Shown: positions 4,997 to 17,961 of the stretch, one piece after another
Layout: the number at the start of each line of letters is the position of its first letter
How positions within the stretch are numbered: position 1 is the stretch's first letter
Origin: a virus
IMG/VR virus record: IMGVR_UViG_3300048904_000056
Coordinates: 1-22,930 of that record
DNA: 22,930 bases
Strand: one strand, 5' to 3'
The notes under the pieces: model-generated
Seen by the model: the letters and a program-made list of their open reading frames with translations, nothing else
The model's database searches: none
Told to the model about the DNA's origin: nothing
Made by a program: the position numbers and the translations under genes

Positions 4997-5812
4997 TTAC
5001 GATGCAGCAGCAACCGCAACAGTCGGGGCGCTGAATGCCTGTGCGCTACCGCTGGCATTCGACGCACTTACGCGCGCCTGAATGATCTTACCAAGCTGTG
5101 CCGATCCAAGGATCAACGTATTGGCAGTAGCACCGGGAATTGCAACACCACCGGCAAACCACTGGTAAGCGTAGCCAATGACAGCATCACCGGTAAACGT
5201 CCCGTTGCTCAAATTGAGCGTTTCGCCAACTTCCGCAGTGCCGGTAATCGCTGGCGCAACGGTATTGGTAGGGGCAACACCACCAGCGCCGGGATCAACA
5301 ACAACTTCCGGCTGATTGAGCGCAAGCGTAAAAACTTCAAGATCGAAATCTTCATTCTTACCCCCGGGACGGGTTGGGCCGGTGACAAGACCGCGATTAT
5401 AAATCACAGTGCCAATACCACCGGAAACAGCAGGATCATTGCGAACAATCTTGAACGCATAATTCAAGTTTGTCTTCGCAATCTGCCGCATGATGATCTG
5501 GCCGGGATCGGTAGGAATGCGAGCAAATTCCAGCGTCGGTGAACCGGCGTCGGTAATGCCTTTGGCCTTCTGTGTAACGATAGTGTCCCAAGTATCGTAA
5601 TTGAGAATGTTGGTCTTCGAACCGGTTTCCCCGAGATTGCCAAGGGATTTGACTTCAACCCATGTCAAAGCTTCGAAGTCAGCTTGTGCCAGATCGGATT
5701 GCTGCGGCGTCGAACAGACGAAAAGCTTCGAACCGGCATTCGTATTGGCGAACACCACAGGAAGTGCAAAGACGCTGCCCATAAGTGCAGCAACGAAGAT
5801 GGATTTTTTCAT
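4997..5812 (-). CDS. Major tail (tube) protein with signal-like leader and C-terminal Ig-like domain
   Basis: A 271-residue tail tube subunit. The tube domain covers roughly residues 23-170 (NTNAGSKLFVCST, then LEVFTLAL at its end). Residues 180-268 form an Ig-like domain (ITGTAEVGETLNL, YAYQWFAGGVAIPGAT, GKIIQARVSASNASGSA), as often found decorating phage tails. Residues 1-22 look like a bacterial signal peptide: MKKS, a hydrophobic core, then VVFA before NTNAG, which is where homologues would start with Met-Ala-Asn. I chose the ATG at 5812 because AAGGGG lies seven bases upstream; an ATG at 5839 has no such site. No other in-frame ATG near the tube domain has a ribosome site, so the leader should be translated. 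A terminator follows the gene. Confidence 0.85.
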   Translation of the reverse strand: MKKSIFVAALMGSVFALPVVFANTNAGSKLFVCSTPQQSDLAQADFEALTWVEVKSLGNLGETGSKTNILNYDTWDTIVTQKAKGITDAGSPTLEFARIPTDPGQIIMRQIAKTNLNYAFKIVRNDPAVSGGIGTVIYNRGLVTGPTRPGGKNEDFDLEVFTLALNQPEVVVDPGAGGVAPTNTVAPAITGTAEVGETLNLSNGTFTGDAVIGYAYQWFAGGVAIPGATANTLILGSAQLGKIIQARVSASNASGSAQAFSAPTVAVAAAS

Positions 5813-6282: not shown

Positions 6283-6740
6283 GATTGGTCTGTTGCCCCC
6301 GGTGAACGTCGTTGAATTTCTGCGGTGTTCTTAGACACGATTGTTTGCCAGTTCTGCACGGCGGTCGCGAGAAAGCCGTCAAACGCTTCCCGATACTTTG
6401 CATATTTTGCAGTCCAACCAAAATAAATCGTTTGCCCGAGATTGAAGCCTGATATTTGCGTGATCATTGCTTCGACAGGCTGTGTTTCATAAAGCGGTGT
6501 ATCGTCCGGTTCGTCTGCCGTTCGCTTTCGACCAAGACCGGGGCCGCTTGGCATTCCTGTTAAAGAAGCTTGACCAGATGCGCGTAAAAATCCTGTATCA
6601 ACCCGCATCTTTCCGTCTTTGGCGACTGGCGTTTGTGCTTGGTCGATTAAATCTTGTGTTGATTGCAACACCAATGCGCGCATTCGCTTAACTGTAGCCA
6701 ATACGAATGCGCTTGTTTGTGCTGTTGCCGTTTGTACCAT
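6279..6740 (-). CDS. HK97-gp10-like neck / head-tail joining protein
   Basis: A 153-residue protein with a long N-terminal helix (AFVLATVKRMRALVLQSTQDLI), then PVAKDGKMRVDTGFLRASG, which matches the conserved middle of HK97-gp10-like proteins (helix, then a D-T-G-x-L-R-x-S turn). The later YFGWTAKYAKYREAFDGFLATAVQNWQ corresponds to the usual Y-x-x-x-x-E-x-G end of the family, here with Ala-Phe-Asp. It joins head completion to the tail terminator. It starts with its own ribosome site (GGAAAG) right at the boundary with the plus-strand group, and a GATAAT box lies about 20-30 bases upstream on the minus strand, so a local promoter is possible but unproven. Confidence 0.75.
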   Translation of the reverse strand: MVQTATAQTSAFVLATVKRMRALVLQSTQDLIDQAQTPVAKDGKMRVDTGFLRASGQASLTGMPSGPGLGRKRTADEPDDTPLYETQPVEAMITQISGFNLGQTIYFGWTAKYAKYREAFDGFLATAVQNWQTIVSKNTAEIQRRSPGATDQS

Positions 6741-6770
6741 TCCAAACTTTCCAATCGGTCAAATTATCGA

Positions 6771-6799
6771 TTGATCTTGGTTCACGCATCAGCTACACA
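6771..6799 (+). promoter_or_regulatory. Possible weak promoter for the AAA+ gene
   Basis: TTGATC (6771-6776), a 17-base spacer and TACACA (6794-6799) lie 22 bases before the ATG at 6822. The -35 box fits 4 of 6 and the -10 box 3 of 6 positions. It is the best candidate I see in the 81-base gap between the two divergent genes, but it is weak evidence. Confidence 0.25.
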
Positions 6800-6821
6800 A
6801 AAACAAACATTGTGGGATGTC

Positions 6822-7919
6822 ATGAAAACATACACCGTTGATCAACTGAAGACCATACTTGGTCCACCTGATACATTCGTTCCTAGCAGCAACAATCATC
6901 GCTACTTGAGATTATGGGCACTCGCCATCGGTTTGCCCGATGTCAAAGTGTACGCAATGACGAACGTTGAACTAACAAACCTATACCATGAGCGCGGCGA
7001 CCAGTTCAACAACGGCGATCAAATTCAACGTATTGCATCTGAAATATTTGTTAAAATCGTTGAAACAGTCCAAAGTGTGCAATTCGATCAGCAAACATTG
7101 GCGGAAATTATTCGCGCTGAAATTTCACACATCTTACCGAAACGTTTGGAAGTCATTTCATCACAAGGATCAATAACAATCGAAGGCCCGCTTCATTATC
7201 AAACCGAAAAAGTGATAAAGATTGCAAGCCTGTCACACCCCATTATGCTTGTTGGCCCGGCAGGATGTGGAAAAACAACAATCGGTCAACATACAGCACA
7301 AGCATTGCAACTTCCCTTTTATATCACCAGCACCATCAACGACACACACGAACTGACAGGCTTTGTTGACGGCACCGGAAGATATCACAGAACACCATTC
7401 CGCGATGCTTACGAAAACGGCGGCGTTTGGGTTGCTGATGAAATCGACGCATGGGACGCCAGCGCATTGCTTGCCGCCAATAGCGCTTTGGCAAATGGCT
7501 ATAGTGTATTTCCAGACAACCCATTGCCCGTAACACGTCACCCAAGCTTCCGCATGATCGCGACAGCAAACACATTCGGTCACGGTGCGGATCGTGTATA
7601 TGTCGGGCGAAACGAATTAGACGCTGCAAGCCTTGATCGTTTTGCTACTATCAATGTTGATTACGATTTGAACCTTGAACAATTGTTTGCCAAAGGGAAT
7701 ATGCAGTGGCTTGAACATGTTTGGGCCGTTCGTAAAGAAGTGACGGAAAAGAAAATTCGACACGTCGTTTCATCGCGCGCAATCATCATGGGATCATCAG
7801 CACTCGCAATCGGTTTGAAATGGGATGACGTTGAAGAAACTTATCTGTTCAAAGGAATGAGTACGAAGGATCGGGAAAAGATCGAAATTGACGATCCAGA
7901 CGATAACGTTCCATTTTAG
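6822..7919 (+). CDS. CobS-like / MoxR-type AAA+ ATPase
   Basis: A 365-residue AAA+ ATPase. Walker A is GPAGCGKT (145-152), Walker B is VWVADEID (202-209), sensor 1 is the Asn at 250 in IATANTFG, and the arginine finger region is SLDRF (R273). The insert around AYENGGVW and the RVYVGRNELD segment are typical of CobS/MoxR ATPases. Residues 1-60 form an extra helical domain. CobS is a cobaltochelatase subunit working with CobT and CobN, but no CobN is visible here and phage CobS-like proteins need not act in cobalamin synthesis. A VWA/CobT-like partner lies three genes downstream, as MoxR-VWA pairs usually do. Residues before the ATG at 6822 are Cys-rich and overlap the divergent gene, so I exclude them. 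The ribosome site is poor. Confidence 0.85.
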   Translation: MKTYTVDQLKTILGPPDTFVPSSNNHRYLRLWALAIGLPDVKVYAMTNVELTNLYHERGDQFNNGDQIQRIASEIFVKIVETVQSVQFDQQTLAEIIRAEISHILPKRLEVISSQGSITIEGPLHYQTEKVIKIASLSHPIMLVGPAGCGKTTIGQHTAQALQLPFYITSTINDTHELTGFVDGTGRYHRTPFRDAYENGGVWVADEIDAWDASALLAANSALANGYSVFPDNPLPVTRHPSFRMIATANTFGHGADRVYVGRNELDAASLDRFATINVDYDLNLEQLFAKGNMQWLEHVWAVRKEVTEKKIRHVVSSRAIIMGSSALAIGLKWDDVEETYLFKGMSTKDREKIEIDDPDDNVPF

Positions 7920-7934
7920 GAATATGTTCACAAT

Positions 7935-7963
7935 TTGACAATCGCTATGATCATCGCTATAAT
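7935..7963 (+). promoter_or_regulatory. Consensus sigma-70 promoter inside the plus-strand group
   Basis: TTGACA (7935-7940) and TATAAT (7958-7963) are both perfect and 17 bases apart. Transcription would begin near 7970, followed by GGAG (7980-7983) and the ATG at 7992. It would drive the four genes 7992-10253 separately from the AAA+ gene and suggests use of unmodified host RNA polymerase, as for early genes. Confidence 0.85.
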
Positions 7964-7991
7964 GATCGCGTCATCAATTGGAGCATCGAAA

Positions 7992-8309
7992 ATGGGAAAA
8001 CGAGTAGGTTACGAATGGTGCGTTGAAGTTTACGAAAACAGCAACACCGATACCGCTGACATTATCGACCATACATTTGACGATTGTCTATCAAATCTTC
8101 CTTGGATTTTGCAAGCGAATGAACTTCACGTTTTAATTCGCACGACTGAAGACGGACATCGTTGTTGGGCATATGTTGACGAAAGTAAGATGCTACCAAA
8201 ATATTTTTCCATACCGGAAGCGGACGGCAAGCATCATGAAACTGCAATTCTGGTGCCCCAACGTTTTCATCGGGAAATCGCGCGCGTAGCTTGTGGATTT
8301 CAATCATGA
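7992..8309 (+). CDS. Conserved-looking phage protein of unknown function
   Basis: A 105-residue acidic protein; I do not recognise a family. It begins GYEWCVEVYEN followed by a TADIIDHTFDD segment, has ELHVLIRTTEDG and WAYVDESKMLPKYF, and ends VPQRFHREIARV. The Y-E-W-x-V-E start and the closing VP-x-R-x-H-x-E-hydrophobic element recur, from memory, in small phage proteins of unknown role. I chose ATG 7992 because GGAG sits eight bases upstream and the consensus promoter ends 28 bases before it. Upstream in-frame starts at 7935 (TTG) and 7947-7963 lie within the promoter itself. Its stop overlaps the next start (ATGA). Confidence 0.65.
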   Translation: MGKRVGYEWCVEVYENSNTDTADIIDHTFDDCLSNLPWILQANELHVLIRTTEDGHRCWAYVDESKMLPKYFSIPEADGKHHETAILVPQRFHREIARVACGFQS

Positions 8310-8734
8310 TTGAATGGACATACAGTGACGGCGGGCGCGAACGCGCGGGCTTCAAAGGTGAAACTGGCGATTGCGTAACACGCGCAATCGCTATCGCAAC
8401 ACGTAAGTCATATCGTGAAATTTATGACGACTTAAACCAACTTGCCAAACGCGAACGAACCGGCACAAAGAAAAGCGGTGTTTCGTCCGCACGCACCGGT
8501 GTTTATCGAACCACCTATCAGAAATATCTTTTGTCACTTGGATGGAAATGGAAACCAACAATGATGATCGGAAGCGGATGCAAGGTTCACTTGCGAACCG
8601 ACGAACTTCCGAAAGGTCGCATCATAGTTTCGTTGTCACGTCATTTAGCTTGCGTGATTGACGGTGTTCTATACGATACACATGATTGCAGCCGCGACGG
8701 CACCCGTTGCGTTTACGGGTACTATTACAAGTGA
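8306..8734 (+). CDS. Papain-like (C39-like) fold protein of unknown role
   Basis: A 142-residue protein. ETGDCVTRAIAIAT (Cys23 at the N-terminus of a helix), SLSRHLACVIDG (His113, Asp119) and YDTHDCSR (Asp124) give the Cys-His-Asp order of papain-like and C39-like peptidases. The pattern DGG-R...AG-F-KG-TGDC and the C-terminus RDGTRCVYGYY recur in small phage proteins, from memory, without known function. It overlaps both neighbours by four bases (ATGA at 8306, GTGA at 8731), so it is coupled to the unknown gene before it and the VWA gene after it. It could be an active peptidase or transferase or an inactive fold; nothing here shows its substrate. Confidence 0.65.
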   Translation: MIEWTYSDGGRERAGFKGETGDCVTRAIAIATRKSYREIYDDLNQLAKRERTGTKKSGVSSARTGVYRTTYQKYLLSLGWKWKPTMMIGSGCKVHLRTDELPKGRIIVSLSRHLACVIDGVLYDTHDCSRDGTRCVYGYYYK

Positions 8735-9906
8735 TCATTATTAGCGGCAGAACGTTTGACCACCGCGAACGCCTGAAGAAATTAGGCGCGCGGTGGGATG
8801 CCGACGACAAGACTTGGATGTTGGATTACGCGAACGATGCAGATATGCGCGAATTGCGTTTGATGCCCGGCGTTCAAATCAAAGAAAACAAACCGTCACC
8901 GCCAAAACCAAAACGGCTAGGAACACAAGTACCTGAAGAATTCATAGATCGCTTCTTTGGAAGCGATGAAAGAATAATTCACGGAACTGCAAAGCCTGAT
9001 ATTCACGGCGACGACAAGACTTATCTGAATTATTTTGCACCACAAAACCCAATCGCATATTTTGGTTTTTCCAGTCTGCCGCAACTTGTTCGATATGTTG
9101 AAAACATTCCTGACAAGATCGCACAAGAATGTGCAGATGGAAGAAACGGCGGTTGGGAAATCGGCACCTATGAAACAAGTTGGTCTGGAACAGAAAACAT
9201 GCATCGCGCGATTGATATTGCGCGCAACGGGTGGCCCAAGGGTGTTGATCTGGCATCTGACATCACTGCACACCTACTTGGACGCCACGCTAAACAACGT
9301 CGCCGGAAATATTCGTTGACCGGTGGTGCTGTGTCAGTCGGTCGGCTACTCGCTAACAATCCTGTTCACATGATATCACGACCGAAACAGCCACGATCAA
9401 AAGCAATCACATTGTTTGTTGATGCTGGAATGTCGTCTTCCATCAAGGCCGATCACGCAATTATCCGCACAGCAATGGTTGCTTCAGTGGTGGATATTTT
9501 GGAAATGAACGGCTATAGCTGCGAAGTCATTGCAACGTTTATTAGTGGATCGGCAACCGGCAAGCCGATCATGCAGATGGTAACAACGCTTAAATCAGCC
9601 GGTGAACCTCTTAATTTGAATGATCTGGTATTTGCACTTGGTCATCCATCATATCTTAGACGAATGTTGTTTGCTGTAGCTGCCACTAATGCACGACTTC
9701 GTTCATATTGGCGAACCATGGGAACACCGCAAGCCGTATTCACGAACGATCACCCGACAAAAACAAACGAACTATTCGTTGACAAAATCCATCATGAACT
9801 TAGACAACTTGTCGTTGGTGATACCGATATTGAAAAAGCTTTTTCAATATGGAAACTGACAGTTCGCGACAAACTGCCGATTACTCTAAACGAGGAACAA
9901 CCATGA
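8731..9906 (+). CDS. CobT/VWA-like protein with N-terminal DUF5710-type domain (DUF7192-like)
   Basis: A 391-residue protein. Residues 4-35 (SGRTFDHRERLKKLGARWDADDKTW) match the short DUF5710-type module with K-x-LGARWD...K-x-W. Residues 150-215 (ENMHRAIDIARNGWPKG, then GGAVSVGRLLANNPVHMI) and the core from residue 225 (AITLFVDAGMSSS, then SVVDILEMNGYSCEVIA) resemble a von Willebrand A fold. The metal site is degenerate: DxSxS becomes Asp231-Ala-Gly-Met-Ser235. From memory this fits the phage family DUF7192. It is the likely partner of the AAA+ ATPase. I chose GTG 8731 because it overlaps the previous stop as GTGA; the open frame upstream reads through the neighbouring gene. Confidence 0.7.
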   Translation: MIIISGRTFDHRERLKKLGARWDADDKTWMLDYANDADMRELRLMPGVQIKENKPSPPKPKRLGTQVPEEFIDRFFGSDERIIHGTAKPDIHGDDKTYLNYFAPQNPIAYFGFSSLPQLVRYVENIPDKIAQECADGRNGGWEIGTYETSWSGTENMHRAIDIARNGWPKGVDLASDITAHLLGRHAKQRRRKYSLTGGAVSVGRLLANNPVHMISRPKQPRSKAITLFVDAGMSSSIKADHAIIRTAMVASVVDILEMNGYSCEVIATFISGSATGKPIMQMVTTLKSAGEPLNLNDLVFALGHPSYLRRMLFAVAATNARLRSYWRTMGTPQAVFTNDHPTKTNELFVDKIHHELRQLVVGDTDIEKAFSIWKLTVRDKLPITLNEEQP

Positions 9907-11749: not shown

Positions 11750-12148
11750 ATGGCAACCCCTGCCGCCACCACCAAAGCCAAGAACGCCCCGCGTGTTGCG
11801 CCTGTCATCACCCCGATCAGCGCCGCACTTACCATGCCGGAACGTGCGAGCAATCGCGGATCGAAGACCATCTATCCTTTCGAACAGCTTCAGGTCGGAC
11901 AGTCGTTTGGCGTGAAGAACAAGAAAGCCGAAAACATGACTTCGATTATCAGCAACCAGAACCGGAAGACGTATCCGGTGAAGGATGCGAGCGGCGCAAT
12001 CGTGATGAAGCCGATCAAAGACGCCGCTGGTGCCGTCATCGGGCAGTCTGCCGATCCTGAAACGTTTTCGAAGCGTTTCTTCGCGGTCGATGTGGACGCC
12101 AAGAAAGACCCTGACGGCGCGACCGTTCGTGTTTGGCGGGAACAGTAA
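11750..12148 (+). CDS. Isolated plus-strand gene of unknown function
   Basis: A 132-residue protein in a single-gene unit with its own leader, a strong ribosome site (GAGAGG) and a strong terminator. The first 40 residues are Ala/Pro/Thr-rich with several Lys and probably disordered. The folded part begins at YPFEQLQVGQSFGVKNKKAENM, continues with SIISNQNRKTYPV and closes with SKRFFAVDVDAKKDPDGATVRVWREQ. The pattern Y-P-F-x-x-hydrophobic-x-V-G-x-S-F, ending with a Phe-containing strand and V-W-R, recurs from memory in small phage proteins without known role. Codon choice is GC-rich like the coat gene, suggesting high expression. It is not clearly structural, because it lies antisense to the late block. 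Confidence 0.7.
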   Translation: MATPAATTKAKNAPRVAPVITPISAALTMPERASNRGSKTIYPFEQLQVGQSFGVKNKKAENMTSIISNQNRKTYPVKDASGAIVMKPIKDAAGAVIGQSADPETFSKRFFAVDVDAKKDPDGATVRVWREQ

Positions 12149-13712: not shown

Positions 13713-14939
13713 TTAGCCAAACAAACCTGCGATATGTTCCTGCTTCACAGCCTTGACGCCCCAAGCCTGTGTGACTTCCGCGCGGATTTTGCGATATCCG
13801 GCGTAAATCGCAACTTCGAACACCATTCCCGAGCGAGGATCAGTGATCAACATGCGGTCAATCGCTGCATCGCCTTCCTGCGGCAGTGCGGGCGCGCGCG
13901 CAACCAGATGCAAAGCATTCTGACTGAATGCGATGTTCGCAGTGCCCTTACCAACAACGGTGATCGCCGTTGCCGCCGCTGGAATTGCAACGCGCAATCC
14001 CGGTGCAGCGATGGTGATAGCACCACCGTTCGACACATCAGCGTCACCACTAACAACAAGATATTTGTTGGTATCACCAGCAAAGGTGATGACCGAACCG
14101 GCTGGAATGGTGCCGGTGCCTGCTGCTGCAAGCGTAATGGCGGTTGCACCCTTGGCATAACCAACGTTGTTGGTGGTCGAAGCCGCGCCCGTTCCTGCAA
14201 CGGTCTGCTGCACCTGTGCGCTTTCCTTGATGGAAATGCCCGACAGATTAAGCAGTTCGCCGTCGCGAAGCGTCATGGCCGTGCCAGCTTCCGAAACGCG
14301 CGTAAGGTTCTGCAAGGTGCGAAGCGATGCACCGGCAGACGTATCGACGATCAGCGAACGACCGCTTGCCGGTGCGCCGTTATCGTCAAGGATTTTGCGA
14401 ACCTGTGCGGCTTCGCCAACGTTGGTCGCAAACGGCGTCGTGCCCGGCGTACCATAGAAACGCGATGCGTTTGCAGCGGCTTCAACGGCAAGATCGAATT
14501 CGATTGCGTTGGTCAACGTGCGAAGTGCCTGTGCGAAGTTATCCGCCTGCACCGACAGATAGCCGGGGCCGGTGTTCAAACCGCGCTGTTCTTCACCGGT
14601 CCATCCAAATTCCACACCCTTTGACTTGGTGATGGTGATGGTCCCGTTGCCAACCGACGTATCGGAAGGTTCGGGAATTTGCATGGCCGGGGTAACGTCG
14701 AACAAGCCTTTCTGTGCGGTGATCGGATAAACGACCGACTGCCCGACTGCGGCACGTTCCGCGTTGGCGTTGCGGAAAACGGAAGGAATGAAGCCGACCA
14801 GTTCGCGCGAAACAACGTCCAAGCCTGCATACAGATCAGGGATCAGGCGAGTGAGCGAGTTTGCATAAACGTCCATGTGAACGACTGCGGGGGCCGCGAT
14901 GATCGCGGACGCCATCAGCAAGCGGGAATTAGCGCGCAT
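13713..14939 (-). CDS. Major capsid protein, P22 coat family, with signal-like leader
   Basis: A 408-residue coat protein of the P22 gene 5 family: SLTRLIPDLYAGLDVVSRELVGFIPSV, ITITKSKGVEFGWTGEEQRGL, RKILDDNGAPASGRSLIVDTS, and a middle insert rich in Ala/Gly/Thr (about residues 270-345). Family members normally begin Met-Ala-Asn-Ser-Leu-Thr; here the corresponding Ala-Asn-Ser is preceded by a 25-residue leader with a basic start (MRANSR), a hydrophobic core (LLMASAIIAAPAVV) and V-Y-A before Asn27. I chose ATG 14939 for its ribosome site AAAGGTG seven bases upstream; the ATG at codon 22 lacks one. No prohead protease gene is present, as expected for P22-type heads. The 5' leader holds three GGAT hairpins. 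Confidence 0.92.
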   Translation of the reverse strand: MRANSRLLMASAIIAAPAVVHMDVYANSLTRLIPDLYAGLDVVSRELVGFIPSVFRNANAERAAVGQSVVYPITAQKGLFDVTPAMQIPEPSDTSVGNGTITITKSKGVEFGWTGEEQRGLNTGPGYLSVQADNFAQALRTLTNAIEFDLAVEAAANASRFYGTPGTTPFATNVGEAAQVRKILDDNGAPASGRSLIVDTSAGASLRTLQNLTRVSEAGTAMTLRDGELLNLSGISIKESAQVQQTVAGTGAASTTNNVGYAKGATAITLAAAGTGTIPAGSVITFAGDTNKYLVVSGDADVSNGGAITIAAPGLRVAIPAAATAITVVGKGTANIAFSQNALHLVARAPALPQEGDAAIDRMLITDPRSGMVFEVAIYAGYRKIRAEVTQAWGVKAVKQEHIAGLFG

Positions 14940-15202: not shown

Positions 15203-16024
15203 TTAGTCAACCAAGTTAACTTCACCCTTCCGTGCCTGTGCGGAAATGTTTGACTGTTCATGCGGGGGAAGCTTGTCGAATTCCGCCCGACGAACAACGC
15301 GACCACCGCCGCGACCGCCGCCACCGCCGCCATTGCCCGAGCCGCTGTGATCGGGTGCCTTCAAGATCGTATCCTTATGCGGATATGCATCGACAATAAT
15401 TTCAAGTGCTTCGTCCAAGTTGGCAATTTCACCAACGCGCGTCTTGGAATACACCTTATTGCCATCAGCATGATAACCGACAAGCTTACCGTCTTCGATC
15501 TTGAAATTCTTGCCAAACGTCGCTTCAAACATTTCCGGTGGGACGGCAACGCGCGACTGAATAAATTTCGACGTTGCGAAAGCATGGGAACGTGTCATTC
15601 CCTGTACCTGTGTCGTCAGATCGCCAATCGCCTTGTCCTTTTCGGCAATCTGCCCCTGATATGTGCGGCCAATTTCGTCTTTGACCCTATCGACTTCGCC
15701 AGCGTCGATAAGTTTCTTTGCGTCAAGTTTGCCGACAGTATCGATTGCCTTGCGGGCTGCGGCTGGATCAATACCTTCGAAAGCCTTCAACGCGGTCTGT
15801 GCGGCTTCCTTTTCCACACGATGTTGACGTGCTTCACCATTCAAACGTGAAATGGTGCCACCTTCGACAGTCATTTCAGCGCCGTTCGCATCAACATAAA
15901 TCGGGTTGCCGTCCTTCAGTTCAATCTTGCCGTCTTTGTCCAACTTCCAACCGGCTTTGCCGGGATCGAAGGAAATTGGCAATGTGAAGATTGCGGCTGA
16001 AGCCATCAAAAGATTACGTTTCAT
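15203..16024 (-). CDS. Scaffolding protein, DUF6651-like, with signal-like leader
   Basis: A 273-residue scaffold next to the coat gene. The pattern fits DUF6651: KLDKDGKIELKDGNPIYVDANGAEM near the start, then ISRLNGEARQHRVEKEAAQTALKAFEG, a long charged helix, FGKNFKIEDGKLVGYHADGNKVYS, and NLDEALEIIVDAYPHKDTIL. A Gly-rich stretch (about 234-246) precedes a basic tail that probably binds coat. Before Trp26, where homologues would start with Met, lies a 25-residue leader with MKRN, the core LLMASAAIF and then SFDPG. I chose ATG 16024 for its ribosome site AAAGGA; no other usable start is near. The upstream frame to 16153 crosses the regulatory region and is excluded. Confidence 0.85.
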   Translation of the reverse strand: MKRNLLMASAAIFTLPISFDPGKAGWKLDKDGKIELKDGNPIYVDANGAEMTVEGGTISRLNGEARQHRVEKEAAQTALKAFEGIDPAAARKAIDTVGKLDAKKLIDAGEVDRVKDEIGRTYQGQIAEKDKAIGDLTTQVQGMTRSHAFATSKFIQSRVAVPPEMFEATFGKNFKIEDGKLVGYHADGNKVYSKTRVGEIANLDEALEIIVDAYPHKDTILKAPDHSGSGNGGGGGGRGGGRVVRRAEFDKLPPHEQSNISAQARKGEVNLVD

Positions 16025-16257: not shown

Positions 16258-17961
16258 TTATTTCTTTTCTGGTTGTGCGGGTTGCGGTTTGGGTGCTGGT
16301 GTACCCGGTGTTTTCGGTTGAACACCACCAGCGCCGTCATCATCGGCAGTATCGCTATCGTCTGGTGTTTCTTTCAACAGTTCTTTTACATCGGCTTCAA
16401 TATCGAATTCCGGCATCAGAATATTGCGCCGCTTCAATTCTTTCAGGAATGCAACACGCGAAATATCGCGATTGGTTCGTGCTGAAACAAGCGTCTGTTG
16501 ATCAACACCCTGATCAGCGAAATCATCGTATTCGTCATAGATATCTAGCTGTGCTTTGAAGTCGGCAATGTTCAACCACTTCGCTGTAATCTCAAGTGCA
16601 ATTTCCAACGTCTTTTTCAAACGTTGCCCCCAAGCACCGACAGCCGTTTTCGATTTGCCCGTAGCAAATGCAGTGGTAATGACAGTGAGATTTCCCGACT
16701 GTGCGGTAAGAGGGACGCGCCCTAATTCCCGCAATTCCTCTATCGTCGCTTTTACATCGGCGGCAAGGAACGTCATCAATGCAGCATCAGGCGATACATA
16801 CGCCCAATGACCAACCTTTCCATCGCCGCTTGGTTCGCAATACAAAACGCGGTTTGGTCCCACACGTAATTTCAACGGTTTTCCATCCGGCCCCTTTTCC
16901 GGTTTGATACCGTTGGCGGCAAGCATCGGATATGCGGCCATGATCTTGGTAAAGTTCAATCCGCTTTCCTGCTTATAAAGCTGAATTTGCAGGTCTGCCG
17001 CATCGCGCATCGGCGGATACAGCTTGAATGTGCGGCCATCCCGGCGACCGGTAACAAATGGCACCAATGGAATAACGCCGATGGTAATCAATCCGCTATC
17101 GATCAGGATGTAGGTTTTTGAGCGACCATCAGCCGATATCTTTTCTTCGAACAATGCCCAATTGACAAGCCCGGTCTTCACATCCTTTTCAAACATGCGG
17201 ATGTAGTTCGGTTTTCCCGGTTCAAGAATACGTACCTTGATCAATTCTTCATTGCCGTTAACAACAGCGGTTGTTGCTTCAAGCACATTGCGTCCAAGAA
17301 CATGCGTCCAAAATGGTTTGATACCCGCGTTCGTAAGATCGGCTTGCGTTTTGATGACGCTGTTATCAACAATAGGATAATCGATAAATATCCAATCGAT
17401 TGCAGATGCAATGCCGTTGAAAAACGTTGTTGCGGCATATGTCGTCAGATTGTTGCCAGCACCATCAACATTTTCAACAAAGTCTTTGATTTGCTGCGGG
17501 ACTTGCGTATTTGCATCGGTGCCTGTCGTTTCGACAAACTTAATTTCTTCTTCGAACGGCTTTGATGCTAGAACTTCAACGATATCCCGAAAGATATTGG
17601 TAAATTCGCCGCATTCCAAACGATATTGATATTCGTCTGTTGTTTCATCTGGAAATTTCGGAAGATATTTTGTGCCACCAGCTTTGATCGCATCATAACC
17701 GGCAACAATATCATCGCTTGTATCCCAATAAGGGATATTGGCGTTCATGTCTGATGCGCGCGCGCCAAGATCAATATCGGTTGATGCCGATTGACCGGCT
17801 ACGGCTTGTGCAGCGTTCAACAATGATTGAATAAGACCAACGTTGACTGTTCCCGGCAATGCCGGTGGAAACGAGTTTGGCGCAATCGGCCCTGTGTCGA
17901 ATGACACAAATGGACGCACTGAAATTGCTGTTGTCGCCAACAATCTGCTATGAATATTCAT
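16258..17961 (-). CDS. Portal protein, DUF4055-like, with signal-like leader
   Basis: A 567-residue portal. The characteristic DUF4055 element is IPLVPFVTGRRDGRTFKLYPPMRDAADLQIQLYKQESGLN from residue 297, and near residue 90 lies AIKAGGTKYLPKFPDETTDEYQYRL, the typical start of the family domain. The C-terminus is a Pro/Gln/Lys-rich tail. The first 24 residues (MNIHSRLLATTAIS, then SFDTG) resemble the leaders of scaffold and coat, followed by a Pro-rich and polar stretch before the family domain. The ATG overlaps the terminase stop (ATGA) with GGGGG ten bases upstream, which supports the start. Confidence 0.88.
   Translation of the reverse strand: MNIHSRLLATTAISVRPFVSFDTGPIAPNSFPPALPGTVNVGLIQSLLNAAQAVAGQSASTDIDLGARASDMNANIPYWDTSDDIVAGYDAIKAGGTKYLPKFPDETTDEYQYRLECGEFTNIFRDIVEVLASKPFEEEIKFVETTGTDANTQVPQQIKDFVENVDGAGNNLTTYAATTFFNGIASAIDWIFIDYPIVDNSVIKTQADLTNAGIKPFWTHVLGRNVLEATTAVVNGNEELIKVRILEPGKPNYIRMFEKDVKTGLVNWALFEEKISADGRSKTYILIDSGLITIGVIPLVPFVTGRRDGRTFKLYPPMRDAADLQIQLYKQESGLNFTKIMAAYPMLAANGIKPEKGPDGKPLKLRVGPNRVLYCEPSGDGKVGHWAYVSPDAALMTFLAADVKATIEELRELGRVPLTAQSGNLTVITTAFATGKSKTAVGAWGQRLKKTLEIALEITAKWLNIADFKAQLDIYDEYDDFADQGVDQQTLVSARTNRDISRVAFLKELKRRNILMPEFDIEADVKELLKETPDDSDTADDDGAGGVQPKTPGTPAPKPQPAQPEKK

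Follow-up and report, generated by a model that had tools for sequence, protein, structure and literature searches.

A candidate propeptide common to head and tail building blocks in siphophages related to Rhizobium phage P106B

The leaders of double-glycine bacteriocins and of other peptides are read at their end by a papain-like C39 peptidase. An analogous arrangement, in which a papain-like peptidase would read the end of a leader, is proposed here for a group of siphophages; it differs from the C39 system in that there is no Gly-Gly, the substrates are virion proteins and no transporter is involved. The leaders of these phages also appear to share several features with Sec signal peptides, namely a positively charged N-terminus, a hydrophobic middle and a small residue, which here precedes a conserved aromatic. 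The third precedent is the prohead proteolysis of SPN3US, phiKZ and T4, where one phage protease acts on several assembly proteins that carry a common motif; gp245 of SPN3US, for example, cuts after AXE in many head proteins, the coat and portal among them (PMC10052503). The system described below resembles prohead proteolysis in this respect, but the tail tube is tagged as well, a short leader at the N-terminus with an aromatic residue at its end serves as the tag, and the phages are siphophages of ∼55 kb with a P22-like coat and no recognised prohead protease, for which we infer cleavage.

Leaders in the window and in related phages

The stretch of DNA analysed (the window) is a virus record of 22,930 bases. 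The nearest named relatives of this phage are the Rhizobium phages vB_RglS_P106B and RHph_X2_24 (Rigallicvirus), from which it differs at the species level, the tail proteins being ∼65% identical. The major tail (tube) protein of the window (4997..5812, minus strand) matches phrog_158 (E = 2e-24) and consists of a lambda gpV-like tube fold followed by a C-terminal Ig-like domain; the best Foldseek match of its model is the lambda tube (7t4f, E = 5e-8). The Ig-like domain (residues ∼181–260) is found in some relatives and is absent from others (L009, L020 and L138).

The first 22 residues of the tail protein, MKKSIFVAALMGSVFALPVVFA (5747..5812, minus strand), form a leader that is followed by Asn-Thr-Asn (NTNAGSK), and its conserved aromatic residue, F21, is encoded at 5750–5752 on the same strand. 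The start codon, an ATG at 5812, has a good ribosome site, AAAAGGGG, five bases upstream, and no Shine-Dalgarno sequence precedes the in-frame ATG at codon 11. The leader described in the initial annotation, where no strand was given, is thereby confirmed as real, together with its remark that the internal ATG has no ribosome site. In the model of the tube protein, residues 1–23 have pLDDT < 50; the leader is unstructured and lies outside the predicted tube fold rather than buried within it. Homologues of the tail protein either are leaderless or begin with a leader of this kind, and do not have long N-termini of unrelated sequence.

That the coat carries the same type of leader, as also stated initially, holds for the window: the coat protein (13713..14939, minus strand, ATG at 14939) belongs to phrog_283 (P22-like) and begins with MRANSRLLMASAIIAAPAVVHMDVY (14865..14939, minus strand) ahead of ANSLT. 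A sequence search found no solved relative of this protein. Leaders beyond those of the earlier description were found on the portal and scaffold. The scaffold-like protein (15203..16024, minus strand, ATG at 16024; phrog_784/DUF6651, also matching the scaffold family phrog_206) has the leader MKRNLLMASAAIFTLPISF (15968..16024, minus strand) before DPGKAGWK. The portal protein (16258..17961, minus strand; phrog_145/DUF4055) has MNIHSRLLATTAISVRPFVSF (17899..17961, minus strand) before DTG, and its ATG at 17961 has a weak ribosome site. With the same kind of tag on head and tail parts, capsid targeting alone is insufficient as an explanation, in agreement with the earlier argument. A homologue of P106B gp17, a small protein encoded on the opposite strand (11750..12148, plus strand), is leaderless in the window but has a leader in P106B, X2_24 and several relatives. 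A fold search with the gp17-like protein gave no usable match, and the leader has low confidence in the model.

P106B and X2_24 carry leaders on the portal, scaffold, coat, tail protein and gp17-like protein, which their annotation tables do not mention. A literature search, with subscription papers and preprints outside its scope, found no account of such leaders and no virion proteomics of the P106B/X2_24 genus. A leader pattern matched 62 times across 403 kb from leader-bearing relatives and 5 times across 437 kb from leaderless relatives at a greater distance, counts that describe the extent of the leaders and are not a test, the pattern having been drawn from leaders already seen. In the leader phages, the matches are confined to five families, bar a few stray ones. 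A clade of 74 rows around P106B and X2_24 was surveyed by a TerL scan combined with ribosome-site-scored starts, which were picked by script and in a few cases corrected by hand. Leaders are found throughout this clade on the coat, scaffold and tail protein and on many portals, and some of the phages have an additional leader on the small opposite-strand protein. Leaders tend to be all-or-none across the building blocks of a phage; mixed phages also occur (L050 with a leader on the scaffold only, L024 on the coat only). No leader was observed on TerL, the connectors or the tape measure.

In another lineage (L037, L042, L063, L071 and L074, also L057), the coat has a longer leader of signal-peptide-like character, for example MKTLLSKTRFIALALVASVAALLPMATFA... 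The coat genes of this group have GAAAG upstream, and the scaffold and portal of these phages are leaderless.

Leader anatomy and comparison with signal peptides

The leaders share one build: a basic residue or His near the start, a hydrophobic stretch, a small residue, then Phe, Tyr or His, and the body of the protein. The resulting junction motif, [AVSG][FYH], is common to several assembly proteins. Lys, Arg or His is found within the first eight residues of 120/122 leaders, and 109/122 have no acid ahead of the junction aromatic. A hydrophobic core of at least eight residues with high hydropathy is present in 71/122, and 25 of the 122 reach the aromatic in fewer than 14 residues. The residue following the aromatic is Asp, Glu or Asn in the scaffolds (35/35) and mostly Ala in the coat and tail protein. 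Leaderless sister phages start exactly at the junction (coat MANTLT, tail protein MANTN, scaffold MSWKLD). A cut after the conserved Phe/Tyr/His would therefore restore the N-termini of the leaderless sisters, as in MANTLT and MANTN.

The main rival to such a cut by a phage enzyme is Sec-type targeting, which accounts for the character of the long leaders. The leader would direct the subunits to the inner membrane during their synthesis, through SRP or SecA, host signal peptidase I would cut most of them, and assembly would take place at the membrane. The early basic residues, the lack of acids and the small residue preceding the aromatic are all as expected for Sec substrates, and AXA-type sites occur in the tail protein (13/18), coat (26/36) and gp17-like protein (9/9). 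The tail-protein leader of the window indeed resembles a textbook signal peptide, and was initially read as ending in a signal-peptidase-like site. Across the families, small residues at −3 and −1 are found in only 11/24 portals and in 0/35 scaffolds (21/35 one step earlier), where a disallowed Asp, Glu or Asn occupies −1 in every case. About a fifth of the leaders, the 25 mentioned above, are very short for a signal peptide, and many coat leaders keep a Pro/His motif of their own, AP.I.H..AYAN (AP..H), which is missing from the other families. These observations do not support the signal peptidase I assignment, and the leaders are probably not classical signal peptides cut by that enzyme, to which they are a poor fit.

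The leaderless proteins also argue against the Sec route. TerL, the connectors and the tape measure are untagged assembly partners that act in the cytoplasm and must meet the tagged proteins; export of the latter is therefore unlikely, and export of whole subunits was rejected on the ground that the untagged partners are needed. Cleaved cargo would end outside the cytoplasm, where packaging is impossible. Nor does Sec targeting predict the tight co-occurrence of the leaders with phrog_5845 described below. Taking both sides together, we regard it as unlikely.

Selection and covariation at the junction

The leaders are kept as peptides by purifying selection, with a pN/pS of 0.19 compared with 0.23 for the protein bodies (close pairs, some of the comparisons overlapping). 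Similarity between the leaders of different proteins within a genome was scored over seven residues ending in the aromatic and compared with shuffled genomes. The observed value of 8.98 stands against 4.89 (SD 0.49) after shuffling, and was reached in 0/5000 shuffles. For portal and scaffold the similarity is 19.3 versus 7.4 in shuffled genomes; the coat–tail and tail–gp17 pairs, taken alone, are not significant. The covariation holds for phages with TerL identity below 68% (z = 7.4). Position by position, excess similarity is observed from 0 to −6, and no single position from −7 to −17 is significant, although residues −7 to −13, taken as one block, are weakly in excess (z about 2.2). Covariation is absent at the residue that follows the aromatic. 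Individual genomes illustrate the pattern: in L150, Gly precedes the aromatic on four proteins, L108 has Phe-Ala-Phe on three, and L089 has FPQAF on two.

Where residues match, the codons behind them are not shared (0.38 versus 0.43 expected), which excludes gene conversion as the source of the match. A translated repeat DNA or RNA element (a translation enhancer, an operator or the product of gene conversion) would account for the location of the leaders at gene starts directly after ribosome sites, but is contradicted both by the low pN/pS of the leaders and by the codon comparison. Gene conversion or an RNA element was ruled out on these two results, and an explanation of this general type is exceedingly improbable. 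Covariation over seven residues without shared codons indicates that one common factor probably reads the junction site; a short site with a single reader would leave such a pattern. The pattern suggests, rather than proves, a cut after the aromatic.

Two other explanations bear on the same data. One is that the leaders are plain structural arms at the N-terminus whose likeness owes nothing to a common factor, a view that the family-specific AP..H motif of the coat leaders favours. Such arms are disfavoured by the shuffle tests, in which the within-genome covariation extends over five unrelated proteins, by the concerted absence of leaders in two lineages and by the low model confidence of the leader in the tube and gp17-like models; we judge them very improbable. 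Alternatively, the leader could be retained as a docking tag through which a hub (a membrane patch, a chaperone or leader–leader contacts) gathers the building blocks. The covariation would fit any common binding partner, and the tendency toward all-or-none leaders on the building blocks agrees with a hub. On the other hand, the covariation adjoins the junction and is not spread along the leader, the junction coincides with the leaderless N-terminus, which is better explained by a cut, and the mixed phages L050 and L024 exist. A retained docking tag is thus doubtful, and we hold it to be quite unlikely.

The reading we favour, for which we see the balance as about even, is that the leader is a propeptide common to head and tail building blocks and removed by one peptidase. 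The set would comprise the building blocks that self-assemble, namely the portal, scaffold, coat and tail tube, and in some phages of the group the small accessory protein as well. Approximately seven residues, those that lead up to the junction, would be recognised by one common factor, and its likeliest action would be to cut right after the conserved Phe/Tyr/His and expose the N-terminus seen in leaderless sisters. In the tail protein of the window, the proposed cut is F21|A22, with A22|N23 as the next best. The uncut leader may hold polymerising subunits inactive and so block early assembly, or it may tether the subunits at the membrane or to a chaperone until it is cut. More tentatively, it is possible that one phage peptidase licenses the assembly of both head and tail, and that the leaders evolve together with this enzyme, the two being gained and lost as one module. 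The head and tail of siphophages are usually taken as separate assembly pathways, and a common, co-evolving tag would amount to one switch for both.

A candidate peptidase and the loss of leaders

The enzyme that would cut the leaders may be phrog_5845, among the gene clusters the one that is present in most leader records and in no leaderless one. Its slot is located between the genes for a 214-residue protein and a helicase. Scored by six-frame search, the slot is filled in 15/15 leader records that cover it and in 0/3 leaderless records (Fisher 0.0012, a value that ignores kinship). The neighbours of the slot in these three leaderless records are either adjacent or separated by an unrelated small ORF. 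Two apparent exceptions, G002 and G011, are contigs that break within the slot. Six further clade contigs that cover it, whose leader state is not known, also carry phrog_5845, and the window record does not cover the slot. The absence of phrog_5845 may reflect a single ancestral loss, since in the subclade that lost it the slot is covered in none of the leader-bearing phages.

An alignment of 10 members of phrog_5845 shows invariant Asp20-Cys21, His100 and Pro113, with a (His/Asp)-(Asp/Asn)-Pro pattern, an arrangement that we take to resemble that of papain-like C39 enzymes. From these invariant residues phrog_5845 is read as a putative papain-like peptidase. Profile searches against Pfam, NCBIfam and PDB did not recognise it as a peptidase, and comparison with the C39 profiles of Pfam and NCBIfam gave no match up to E = 10. 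Distant homologues occur in Sansa and Lumi, two phages in which the structural proteins are without such leaders. Should phrog_5845 be the enzyme, a role and a set of natural substrates would fall to a family of unknown function.

Two other loci of the window were considered and rejected. Within the structural region, on the opposite strand, lie genes for a MoxR-like AAA+ protein (phrog_249, CobS-like) and a DUF7192-like protein (6663–9906, plus strand), a pair that occurs in 8/15 leader records and 0/3 leaderless ones; as a reader of the leaders it was discarded, being missing in the leader phages L009, L011, L014 and L020. A small papain-like ORF with a Cys/His pattern (8312–8734, plus strand; phrog_3754) was discarded as a candidate enzyme, with no homologue in the other 18 related records.

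The TerL tree places leaderless phages inside the leader clade at two points, as L111/L122/L129/L164/L165 and as L109/L110/L135; several forks near these groups are weakly supported. The leaders were apparently lost jointly on two occasions. Both leaderless groups fall in a subclade with short leaders and leaderless portals. The occurrence of all-leader and no-leader phages within one clade provides a natural experiment. The contigs of two members of the leaderless groups, L164 and L165, are binned as rumen Alphaproteobacteria MAGs.
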